From the NCBI GenBank assembly GCA_021774795.1, contig JAJFIR010000031.1, forward strand, positions 434,001-498,000: a stretch of 64,000 nt of DNA, in the 5' to 3' direction. Positions 49,825 through 55,668 of the stretch are shown piece after piece. Position 1 is the first letter of the stretch, and each line of letters opens with the position of its first letter. A model generated the notes under the pieces. The model saw nothing but the letters and a program-made list of their open reading frames with translations. It ran no database searches and was not told the DNA's origin. This DNA comes from Emcibacteraceae bacterium (lineage in GTDB: Bacteria; Pseudomonadota; Alphaproteobacteria; Sphingomonadales; Emcibacteraceae). A program made the position numbers and the translations under genes.

Positions 49825-50520
49825 ATGATCAAAAAAATAGCAGTATTAACGGTAGCAGCAGTTACCGCTACTACCTTAATGAACGCACCCTCCCAAGCAG
49901 CAACGTTGGATTTTACGAAAGACACATTCATCGGTGCGAGTGGACCGTTTGCAGGGACTGGCTATACTATTTCAGTTGTTGGCGGAACATTATCTACTAA
50001 TCAATCTCAAGATGGCAATACTTGTGTTGGCCTCGATTGTATTAGGGATGGTATTGGTGTAAGTGACGGCAATGGAAATCAGGATGATGATGATGAGATA
50101 TCATCACGTAACGGCCAGTCGCTTACCATTACTTTTGATACTGCAATCAGAATTACGGGGCTTGCATTTTTAGATTTATTTATGGATGACGAATCTAATA
50201 ATCGTGAAAAAGCCCATGTGGCATATACGGGTGGGTCTATGGATTTTCTTGCTGATCCTAACCAGGTGCGGTTTGATGGATCAAGCGGATTTTTAAATGT
50301 AACCGGCCTCAATCTCTTTACAAGTTTTTTAACATTCACCGTTGCCGATGGCATTTTGCAAGGTCGTGAATATGGTGATTATGCGCTTGCCAGCGTTTCC
50401 GCCGTGCCTTTACCGCCGGCGGTTGTTATGTTCGGTGTTGCACTTAGTGGTGTTGGTTTCATGGCACGTCGCCGCAGAAAAAGCGGTTCGAATACGAGAA
50501 GCGGTTCGAACATTCAATAA
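49825..50520 (+). CDS. VPLPA-CTERM sorting-signal protein, copy 1
   Basis: A 231-residue secreted protein with a signal peptide (about 1-26, ending SQA) and a C-terminal sorting tripartite signal: VPLPPA, a hydrophobic helix (VVMFGVALSGVGFM) and a basic cluster (ARRRRK). This is the VPLPA-CTERM type of PEP-CTERM-like signals, processed by an exosortase that is not in this window. The mature part (TLDFTKDTFIGASGPFAG, DNREKAHVAYTGGS-like strands) is a beta-rich domain shared with the copy at 50944. Function unknown; surface or matrix placement is inferred. Confidence 0.85.
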   Translation: MIKKIAVLTVAAVTATTLMNAPSQAATLDFTKDTFIGASGPFAGTGYTISVVGGTLSTNQSQDGNTCVGLDCIRDGIGVSDGNGNQDDDDEISSRNGQSLTITFDTAIRITGLAFLDLFMDDESNNREKAHVAYTGGSMDFLADPNQVRFDGSSGFLNVTGLNLFTSFLTFTVADGILQGREYGDYALASVSAVPLPPAVVMFGVALSGVGFMARRRRKSGSNTRSGSNIQ

Positions 50521-50937: not shown

Positions 50938-50943
50938 ATGAGT

Positions 50944-51579
50944 ATGAAAAACAGTTTAAAGAGTTTTATTGGGGCACTTGCATTTTCTTGTATGTTTGTT
51001 TCAAATTCCGGCGCAGAAACGCTTGATTTTACAAAGAATCCTTTTGTTGGTAGTAGTGGCTCCTTTGCTGGCACTATATATACTATCACCGCAATTGGCG
51101 GTTCTTTATCCTGGGGCCAGAACGAGGATGGCGGCAGTTGCTTTGGCTTGGCTTGTCAGAAAGACGGACTGGGTGTTGATGATGATGAAATCAGTATTGG
51201 CGATGAGCGGATTAGAATTCAATTTGATGACTTTATCACTATTTCCGGTTTTGCATTTTTGGATCTTTTTACCAGTACAAATGGAAACATGCATGAAAGA
51301 GCAGTTGTAGAATATGATGGCGGCTCAACATTTTTCGATAGTCTGGACGATGAAACACCAAACGGGGACAGTGGTTTTAGAATGGTTACAGGACTGAATA
51401 TATTCACTAACTTTTTAGTATTTTCCGCTGGTGGATTGAACGATGATGTCGGTGTTGACGATTACGCGCTTGCCGCAATAGTGTCACCTGTTCCGATTCC
51501 TCCCGCATTGTTGATGTTTGGCGCAGCACTTGGCGGTATCGGGTTTTTAAGCCGCCGCCGCAAATTTGTTCGTGAATAA
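50944..51579 (+). CDS. VPLPA-CTERM sorting-signal protein, copy 2
   Basis: Paralog of the protein at 49825. The mature N-terminus (TLDFTKNPFVGSSGSFAGTIYTI) and the middle (FAFLDLF, VTGLNIFTNFLVFS) follow copy 1 closely, including a Cys-containing motif (CFGLACQKDG against CVGLDCIRDG). The C-terminal signal is VPIPPA, a hydrophobic helix and RRRKFVRE. AGGG at 50931-50934 gives better spacing to the ATG at 50944 than to the one at 50938, two codons upstream in frame. Function unknown. Confidence 0.83.
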   Translation: MKNSLKSFIGALAFSCMFVSNSGAETLDFTKNPFVGSSGSFAGTIYTITAIGGSLSWGQNEDGGSCFGLACQKDGLGVDDDEISIGDERIRIQFDDFITISGFAFLDLFTSTNGNMHERAVVEYDGGSTFFDSLDDETPNGDSGFRMVTGLNIFTNFLVFSAGGLNDDVGVDDYALAAIVSPVPIPPALLMFGAALGGIGFLSRRRKFVRE

Positions 51580-53503: not shown

Positions 53504-53842
53504 ATGACATATGTGGTCACAGAAGCATGTATTAAATGTAAATTCACAGACTGTGTTGAAGTCTGTCCTGTAGATTGTTTTTACGAAGGTGAAAACATGC
53601 TGATTATCAACCCCAGCGAATGTATTGACTGTGGGGTATGTGAACCTGAATGTCCCGCCGAAGCCATTCTTCCCGATACTGAAGATGGTATGGAAAGGTG
53701 GGCTGACCTTGCGGAAAAATATGCAGATGATTGGCCCAATATTACAGAACAGAAAGATCCTATGGAAGGCGCAGATGACGTCATATCCGAAGGTGACAAA
53801 TTTAAAAAATATTTTAGTGAAAATCCTGGCGAAGGGTCGTAA
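53504..53842 (+). CDS. fdxA: Seven-iron ferredoxin FdxA
   Basis: A 112-residue ferredoxin. The N-terminal clusters of cysteines, [18 protein letters not shown] and [16 protein letters not shown], match the Azotobacter-type 7Fe ferredoxins with one [3Fe-4S] and one [4Fe-4S] cluster. The C-terminal half is acidic and carries the family-typical [18 protein letters not shown] precedes the ATG. It is next to carD, as in most alphaproteobacteria. Confidence 0.96.
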
Positions 53843-54208
53843 CAAGCGCAATAATTGCTATAAACTCCGTGCTTCATAAGTAATGCTTTATATTGCATAT
53901 GATATGCGGGGTGTTTTTTATGTGAATTTTATGTTACACTATACGCTATAAAACATGATAGTTTAACAGGGATTGACATTAACGTACTGATTCTGAAACA
54001 ATTTTAAAAAATAGTCATTAGGTTTAGTAAAGCGAATAATAGCTTTGGCTAGGCTTTTTTGGAATTTTTTAATATTGTGCATTTGCAAAACAGCTTTCTG
54101 TATTCCCGTTCCAACTGTCTTGGATTATTTTTATATTTAATAATGAGAACTCTGGTTAGAAAATTCTAATTTTATTGATTAAACAGAGTTCGTGTGGAGA
54201 GAGTTTTA
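53843..54208. other. 366-base intergenic region with carD leader
   Basis: No reading frame. TAGC-TTTG-GCTA followed by a T-rich run at about 54040-54062 could be a weak terminator of fdxA. The last 60 bases hold an inverted repeat: AACTCTG (54148-54154) and CAGAGTT (54184-54190), with an inner TTAGAA/TTCTAA pair. This hairpin ends just before the carD ribosome binding site (GGAGAG). Confidence 0.5.
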
Positions 54209-54721
54209 ATGGCTAAATCTGAAAAATTGGAATTTTCCATCGATCAGAATATCGTTTACCCTAAGCACGGTGTGGGCAATATTACTGGCATTCAAGTACA
54301 AGAAATTTCAGGAATGTCTATCGAGTTATATGTAATTCGTTTTGAAAAAGAGAGAATGACATTAAGAGTGCCTACCGACAAAGCGGTAAGTGTCGGGATG
54401 CGATGCATATCCGATAAGGACACTATGGAAAAAGCGTTTGTTACGTTAAAAGGTAAGGCACGGATCAAGCGTACTATGTGGAGCCGGCGTGCACAGGAAT
54501 ATGAGACAAAAATCAATTCTGGCAGCATTATTTTCCTCGCCGAAGTTGTTCGTGATTTATACCGTAGCGGCGACCAATCCGAGCAATCCTATAGTGAGCG
54601 ACAAATTTTTGAAGCCGCTATCAGTCGGTTGGCACGTGAAGTGGCGGCAGTTGAAGAGATTTGCGAAAAAGAGGCCCTGATAAAATTGGAAAGTGTATTG
54701 TCGCCGGAAATAGCGGCTTGA
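54209..54721 (+). CDS. carD: CarD family transcriptional regulator
   Basis: RNA polymerase-binding factor that stabilises open complexes at promoters such as those for rRNA. The 170-residue protein has the RNAP-interacting Tudor-like domain (IVYPKHGVGNITGIQ, about 15-70) and a helical domain that binds upstream DNA (GSIIFLAEVVRDLYR, about 100-165). The ATG at 54209 with GGAGAG seven bases before is preferred; an in-frame GTG at 54194 would overlap that ribosome binding site. A strong terminator follows 24 bases after the stop. Confidence 0.96.
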   Translation: MAKSEKLEFSIDQNIVYPKHGVGNITGIQVQEISGMSIELYVIRFEKERMTLRVPTDKAVSVGMRCISDKDTMEKAFVTLKGKARIKRTMWSRRAQEYETKINSGSIIFLAEVVRDLYRSGDQSEQSYSERQIFEAAISRLAREVAAVEEICEKEALIKLESVLSPEIAA

Positions 54722-54744: not shown

Positions 54745-54773
54745 AAAAAAGCCCGTTTCAGACGGGCTTTTTT
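54745..54773 (+). terminator. Rho-independent terminator of carD
   Basis: GCCCGT-TTCAG-ACGGGC with an A-run before and a T-run of six after; the whole AAAAAAGCCCGT/ACGGGCTTTTTT stem is perfect over 12 base pairs. It can also act on the minus strand. Confidence 0.92.
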
Positions 54774-54840: not shown

Positions 54841-55668
54841 ATGGACGAGAATGCATTATCTAACATGGACGACAGCCGATACGGCATCTTAAAGAATGCC
54901 ATACGGGTTTGGGCTATTGGCTCAATTCATGGTGAGGTAGGCTTACTTCGTGATGTGCATAAAGGTCTTATTTCGAAATTTCGACGTGGCGACAAACTCG
55001 TATATTTGGGTAATTACTTTGGTGATACAAAGCTTAATAAAGATACGTATGATGAATTATTGCGTGCGCGCCGTCAGTTGATGTCTTTACCGGAAGTATT
55101 TATGCCGGAAGATTTTGTATATCTTCGTGGTGCACGCGAAGAGATGTTTTTCAAATTGCTACAATTGCATTTTGCACCTAACCCTGTTGAAGTGATGGAC
55201 TGGTTGCTTGATCATGGTATGGCAAGCTCGATAGCTGCTTATGGTGAAAATGAAGTAACGGCGCGTGCTATTGTTCGTCAGGGTACGATGGCGTTAACAA
55301 AGTGGACGAATGGAATCCGCCGGCAAATACAATCTTGCCCCGGACATATCGAATTAACAAGCTGTCTAAAAAGAGCTTGTTTTACATTCGACGGAAAGCT
55401 TCTTTTTGTTCATGCAAGCGTTGATGTAAGCAGACCACTTACAATGCAAAAGGATCAGTTCTGGTGGGATAACGGAAATTTTGATAAAATTGACCAAAAA
55501 TTTTCTGAATTCTCGAAGGTCATAAGAGGATATGATCATTCTAACAGCGGGGTTGATTTGGAAAGCGAACATACCGCGACGATAGATGGTGGCTGCGGTC
55601 GTGGCGGTTGGCTGCAAGCGGTCTGTTTTTCACCAAACGGCGATAAGTTGGACGAAATAGCTACTTAA
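54841..55668 (+). CDS. PPP-fold metallophosphoesterase-like protein lacking metal-site motifs
   Basis: A 275-residue protein that follows the serine/threonine phosphatase (PPP/ApaH-like) family over its whole length, but the three metal-binding motifs are altered: GDxHG reads GSIHG (27-31), GDxxDRG reads GNYFGD (57-62) and GNHE reads GARE (97-100). FVHASVDVSRPL matches the later FVHAG motif, and the HT motif reads GYDHS. If the calls are right it cannot bind the usual two metal ions, so a phosphatase activity is unlikely and a binding or regulatory role is possible. It stands alone between carD and the RND operon. Confidence 0.75.
   Translation: MDENALSNMDDSRYGILKNAIRVWAIGSIHGEVGLLRDVHKGLISKFRRGDKLVYLGNYFGDTKLNKDTYDELLRARRQLMSLPEVFMPEDFVYLRGAREEMFFKLLQLHFAPNPVEVMDWLLDHGMASSIAAYGENEVTARAIVRQGTMALTKWTNGIRRQIQSCPGHIELTSCLKRACFTFDGKLLFVHASVDVSRPLTMQKDQFWWDNGNFDKIDQKFSEFSKVIRGYDHSNSGVDLESEHTATIDGGCGRGGWLQAVCFSPNGDKLDEIAT

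Follow-up and report, generated by a model that had tools for sequence, protein, structure and literature searches.

Pseudophosphatases have been studied mostly in eukaryotes. Some kinetoplastid sequences of the PPP phosphatase family had earlier been predicted to be pseudophosphatases because of substitutions at catalytic residues; they are eukaryotic proteins, and the part of the source available to us contains neither functional data nor a link to a transcription regulator (PMC2175518). PfPPP8 was described in 2023 as the first PPP-family pseudophosphatase and, according to the available portion of that paper, has a demonstrated essential role that is non-catalytic (PMC10317984). PfPPP8 and the other apicomplexan PPP-type pseudophosphatases have a PPP fold with an altered motif II (GNLINRG), one core motif is mutated, and some homologs have no obvious mutations (same partial source). 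Searching the open-licence literature in PMC, we found neither a PPP pseudophosphatase from bacteria nor any paper about the gene that we describe here.

This gene lies in a window of 64,000 nucleotides, the whole stretch of DNA that we analyzed, from the genome of an Emcibacteraceae bacterium. Its product shares the altered motif II and the PPP fold with the apicomplexan proteins. It differs from them in belonging to a bacterial family, known from sequence only, in which several motifs have been lost in all of the orthologs that we surveyed. The closest active systems are the PPP/ApaH enzymes of bacteria, phages and plants–for example, lambda NinI/PP, PrpE, ApaH and Rhizobiales-like phosphatase 2–which have the same fold (Z-scores of 16.6-20.0), the same order of motifs, a helical insert with the same W, Y-G and H positions, and an IDxG end, and to which the family is also connected by a match to PHROG 246. 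Unlike these enzymes, the family lacks both metal-binding Asp residues, the Asn, the catalytic His and the motif-V His; it has invariant residues of its own and it forms a separate clade. We interpret it as an old alphaproteobacterial family of PPP-fold pseudophosphatases, apparently of single origin, that would act by binding and not by hydrolysis, and we give this reading a probability of about 0.75.

Fold and motifs of the protein

The sequence-only reading of the window had placed GSIHG, GNYFGD and GARE at the metal-binding motif sites of a PPP/ApaH-like phosphatase encoded by an intact reading frame. The frame starts with ATG, stops with TAA and has no internal stops. The register of the motifs (Table 1) is confirmed by alignment to a PPP relative in the same genome (L267, on contig C2), whose motifs are all intact (GDIHG, GDYVDRG, GNHE, FVHAG and GHT), and to other motif-intact relatives. 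The alignment adds a further loss to the three already noticed: motif V reads RGYDH, and its metal-binding His is replaced by Tyr or Phe in most orthologs, with Arg 229 nearly invariant. In motif II, N58 is the consensus residue of the family. The C-terminal end, IDGGCGRGGWLQA, is present. The sequence-only reading had also called the flanking sequence well kept, which is too strong for the His of the FVHA motif, present in only 67 of 134 orthologs from the class.

Table 1. Coordinates of the pseudophosphatase gene, its motifs and neighboring features in the window.
Feature	Position	Strand	Description
FdxA-type ferredoxin	53504..53842	+	next gene of the conserved block; named by sequence recognition
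CarD (CdnL)-type regulator	54194..54721	+	175 aa, Ala-Ala end; conserved upstream neighbor; named by sequence recognition
Intrinsic-terminator-like hairpin and U-run	54745..54773	+	between CarD and pseudophosphatase genes; stretch MFE -19.3 kcal/mol, z -2.69
Pseudophosphatase gene	54841..55668	+	275 aa, predicted PPP/ApaH fold, metal centre lost
Motif I	54919..54933	+	GSIHG, residues 27-31, versus GDxHG; Asp gone, His 30 retained
Motif II	55009..55029	+	GNYFGDT, residues 57-63, versus GDxxDRG; both Asp gone
Motif III	55126..55143	+	RGAREE, residues 96-101, versus RGNHE; Asn and catalytic His gone, Glu retained
Motif IV	55405..55419	+	FVHAS, residues 189-193; His 191 retained here, not family-wide
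Motif V	55525..55539	+	RGYDH, residues 229-233, versus xGHT (canonical G-H-T/S)
C-terminal IDGGCGRGG	55582..55608	+	counterpart of IDTGAxxxG in motif-intact PPPs

Structure prediction, which had been proposed as a check, gave a model with a mean pLDDT of 91.0 and a pTM of 0.90, and its structural matches are of the PPP/ApaH type. The best is Rhizobiales-like phosphatase 2 (5vjv; Z = 20.0, 3.1 Å over 221 residues), followed by a putative diadenosine tetraphosphatase (2qjc; Z = 19.6), the phosphatase domain of PnkP (4j6o; Z = 19.2), lambda phosphatase (1g5b; Z = 17.7) and ApaH (Z = 16.6-16.7, the latter for E. coli ApaH, 9ojd); the alignments to 5vjv, 2qjc and 9ojd span 196-221 residues. In Foldseek the same model gave modest TM-scores of 0.47-0.57 by query length, with rmsd values of at least 6 Å. 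From the model, we are confident that the fold is a metallophosphoesterase alpha/beta sandwich of PPP/ApaH type.

Searches with single sequences are much less informative. The window protein has no meaningful match in Pfam, its best match in NCBIfam is below the cut-off (E = 0.031), and in the PDB it hits only ribosomal protein L25 (E = 0.85). The 27 aligned orthologs likewise have no meaningful Pfam match; family PF00149 was found in none of them and, below the cut-off, in one of seven more distant members. (The 27-row alignment was built from 30 loci; L018 and L024 were excluded for unknown residues and L029 was missed by the pattern.) The gene is therefore probably annotated as "hypothetical". 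PHROG 246, the NinI-like serine-threonine phosphatases, matches all 27 of the aligned orthologs, with a best E-value of 3.6e-13 (4.5e-4 for the window protein). A profile made from the orthologs picks up motif-intact PPPs at about 1e-11 in a whole-genome search, and the family profile finds them at E-values down to 1.3e-22 in a small set of ORFs. The PHROG match, the ortholog profile and the predicted fold thus agree with the alignment first made by eye, which was right where single-sequence searches of Pfam and the PDB missed the relationship.

Distribution and the CarD gene block

We drew 385 genomes evenly across the Alphaproteobacteria, and 134 of them have an ortholog (E < 1e-40); beyond these, matches are no better than 2.6e-11, and their motifs are intact where we read them. 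A draw of 398 genomes from the whole phylum produced 13 matches below 1e-40, all within the same class or closer, and the best match from outside the class (4.4e-12) is a protein with motifs I to IV intact. Among 60 genomes of relatives, the window's own included, 33 have a match and 30 of these are near full length, so that there are near full-length orthologs in 29 relatives and weak or partial matches in three; one genome from the same taxonomic family (G018, listed as 99% complete) has no match. The nearest relatives are in metagenome-assembled genomes (MAGs) of Emcibacteraceae and Kordiimonadaceae. When species genomes were scanned with a pattern, 385 stretches that encode a relative came up, and we kept 80 of them, including records from Emcibacter, Kordiimonas, Sneathiella, Magnetospirillum, Terasakiella and Aquibaculum. 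In plasmid records the sole match was a distant Ser/Thr phosphatase, and orthologs were absent.

Some individual records stand out. The matched stretches of three orthologs (L137 in G293, L214 in G137 and L218 in G395) each contain one in-frame stop, which may reflect a sequencing error, a match that overruns the stop codon, or true damage. Three MAG records titled Anaerolineae, Mesoflavibacter and Stygiobacter (L082, L085 and L086) carry the alphaproteobacterial CarD block and are probably mislabelled or contaminated bins.

The neighborhood of the gene is also conserved. The order of the block is helicase, S4 protein, FdxA, CarD, pseudophosphatase (all named by sequence recognition), and on the 3' side there is an RpoH or M48 peptidase gene in many lineages, or an RND efflux operon in the window's taxonomic family. 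Elsewhere in the window, at 49825-50520 and 50938-51579, there are genes for two similar secreted proteins, each ending in VPxPP, a hydrophobic stretch and an RRR tail, an arrangement that we take to resemble a PEP-CTERM-type sorting signal.

In 111 of the 134 class genomes with an ortholog, the stretch that we fetched has CarD upstream of the gene and on the same strand. CarD is about 1.4 kb upstream in two more, G095 and G319, and in G363 the gene is at a contig end. We could place both genes in 66 genomes, namely those whose CarD location is among the 150 locations listed from 337 genomes; CarD is within 400 bases in 52 of these, and far off or on another contig in 10. The two genes are mostly together, yet separable. 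In one family (L224, L225 and L229) the pseudophosphatase gene has ffh (SRP54) as its neighbor instead of CarD, and in L224 it is flanked by dapF on the other side (both names by sequence recognition). The relocated copies have no common neighbor theme: ffh is found in this one family and the others differ.

Conversely, CarD was found in 337 of the 385 class genomes, far more than the 134 that have the pseudophosphatase. We fetched 40 CarD regions from genomes without an ortholog, of 84 listed, and none has a homolog adjoining CarD, so we reject the idea that a divergent copy is hidden there. The rest of the block is often in place in these 40 regions, with FdxA in 34, M48 in 20, S4 in 19 and RpoH in 12, and CarD in them often directly adjoins the RpoH or M48 gene. 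On a tree of CarD and FdxA with 163 rows, limited to loci where both genes were found and so missing genomes that lack them or have moved them, the pattern of presence and absence needs at least 15 changes (gains or losses), four of them forced by starred branches, and a single group of 21 rows contains 20 of the 34 that lack the gene.

A terminator-like hairpin followed by a U-run separates CarD from the pseudophosphatase gene in the window (Table 1), although a simple terminator scan placed it on the minus strand only (54763-54751). Many genomes of the window's taxonomic family and of the Sneathiella relatives have similar hairpins in the same gap, whose median length over the CarD-pseudophosphatase pairs is 118 bases. 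Terminator-like hairpins were present in 82 of 147 distinct cases of adjacent CarD and pseudophosphatase genes, by a loose scan that counts some weak hairpins. The two genes therefore need not form one operon, and they are stable neighbors though apparently terminated separately.

These observations bear on the strongest alternative to a role with CarD, which is that the pseudophosphatase is maintained by selection for a task unrelated to CarD, and is found there only because the helicase, S4, FdxA, CarD, RpoH and M48 genes form an old block that rearranges slowly. The entire block is conserved with or without the pseudophosphatase, the relocated copies persist, and the hairpins lie between the two genes. 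CarD is not singled out as the partner by position, because the FdxA, S4, RpoH and M48 genes share the neighborhood. Set against this, the slot after CarD is kept in most of the genomes while the genes on the far side vary by lineage. We regard a CarD-unrelated job as having just under an even chance of being correct.

Motif loss, ancestry and selection

We aligned all 134 orthologs from the class draw. None has the motif-I Asp and none has the motif-II metal Asp. The Asn of motif III is present in four, its catalytic His in two, and the His of motif V in four, whereas His 30 of motif I is kept in 109 and His 191 of motif IV in 67. No ortholog retains more than three of these seven site residues. 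Among the 161 distinct orthologs from all draws (taken from 203 strong ORFs after excluding duplicates and sequences with X), the motif-I Asp is again absent (0/161) and the motif-II Asp is found in six; those listed come from the Magnetospirillum/Terasakiella group and its neighbors. We found no orthologs with intact motifs that could be intermediates, and the nearest intact proteins belong to a separate clade. Judged from these residues, none of the sequences that we examined has an intact metal centre, and the window protein is very probably inactive as a PPP phosphatase.

We built a tree from 30 family members together with 22 PPPs whose motifs are intact; one branch splits the two groups with SH-aLRT support of 99, and the same split has a support of 100 after removal of the motif columns. 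These are quick trees that contain some long branches (L267 and L141), and five rows that we chose were missing from the set of 161 orthologs and hence lie outside the tree. The loss of the metal centre thus appears to be ancient and of single origin.

The family is constrained at many other sites. Among these, residues W24, D51, N58, G61, R77, E101, K105, W155, G168, W208 and R229 are each conserved in at least 93% of the 161 orthologs and not in the 22 intact PPPs, and D205 is a further new charged invariant beside D51, R77, E101, K105 and R229. The family and the intact PPPs have W121, Y134, G135, H169, Q203, W209 and D249 in common. The combination of lost catalysis and newly constrained sites points towards a new function. 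Pairwise dN/dS values (YN00) for the seven usable pairs, all from outside the window's genus (within it, dS is saturated in most pairs), are 0.055, 0.112, 0.207, 0.060, 0.094, 0.115 and 0.060. The gene is under purifying selection.

The partial survival of the old site, in His 30 and His 191, counts against the view that the enzyme is dead. It could be argued that the protein is still an enzyme whose site was rebuilt from His 30, Glu 100 and Asp 249 together with the family-specific Arg, Asp and Glu residues, since E100 is invariant (161/161) and the new charged invariants (D51, R77, E101, K105, D205 and R229) might supply the remainder. We consider this quite improbable: the conserved set of metal ligands is gone, the histidines that survive do so variably, and E100 and D249 may be structural, because they are equally conserved in motif-intact PPPs.

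That the gene is decaying after a recent loss of function in the window's genome, for which only the raw motif losses speak, is ruled out for practical purposes by the ortholog survey, given the same losses in every ortholog, the intact ORF, dN/dS values of 0.05-0.21, and the 29 relatives with near full-length orthologs. The sequence-only reading had judged the protein to be a selected pseudoenzyme and not a decaying one, and had named intact-motif orthologs in close relatives and relaxed selection as the signs that would speak against this. The search for orthologs showed the same losses throughout, with neither metal-binding Asp in any of the 134 class genomes, and dN/dS shows no relaxed selection where dS is usable, so that this judgment is supported by the comparison of orthologs.

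Possible functions of the family

We think it very probable that the protein has a selected function, and we infer that it acts by binding. It would be unable to hold the two catalytic metals and would instead bind a partner or a ligand. In a PPP fold that would be free of metal, the conserved arginines R77, R96 and R229, together with the tryptophans, could allow a phosphorylated ligand or protein to be bound but left uncleaved. The notion that a pseudophosphatase can act as a "phosphate trap" is not new, in the available part of the source (PMC5106787). The protein could serve as a scaffold, or it could sense a phosphorylated ligand held in a putative arginine-rich former active site.

CarD is an RNA-polymerase-binding activator of rRNA transcription, as described in the portion of the source to hand (PMC5324124). 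In Caulobacter, the C-terminal Ala-Ala of CdnL drives its clearance by ClpXP on starvation, and an adaptor for this clearance was suggested, not identified, in the sections available of that paper (PMC11034885). In genomes with the pseudophosphatase gene, CarD ends in Ala-Ala in 125 of 143 cases and in Val-Ala in nine (134 of 143 combined). We considered whether the Ala-Ala end is restricted to genomes that have the gene and rejected this, because 29 of the 40 CarD proteins from genomes without it also end in Ala-Ala; the link to ClpXP is therefore a lead only.

A role with CarD or RNA polymerase is our best lead, unproven. The most likely working model is that the pseudophosphatase would modulate CarD/CdnL or the polymerase complex, and we hold the tie to CarD and RNA polymerase tentatively, at somewhat less than an even chance. 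A more specific version, which we consider unlikely, is that the family is a hitherto missing regulator of CarD/CdnL in the Alphaproteobacteria, a sensor with a metal-free PPP fold that controls how firmly CarD grips RNA polymerase or how CarD is cleared by ClpXP. In that case the ligand in the putative arginine-rich former active site could be an alarmone, an Ap4A-like nucleotide or a phosphoprotein.

PPP-type pseudophosphatases were known in protists, and what is new here is a bacterial family. It is carried by about one-third of the alphaproteobacterial genomes sampled (134 of 385), and the loss of its metal centre is complete and apparently happened once, which makes the family a clear example of an enzyme fold that has become what would be a binding protein. 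Because members occur in culturable genera such as Sneathiella and Magnetospirillum, the family is open to experiment, and its adjacency to CarD leads to a specific and testable proposal that it may take part in growth control.
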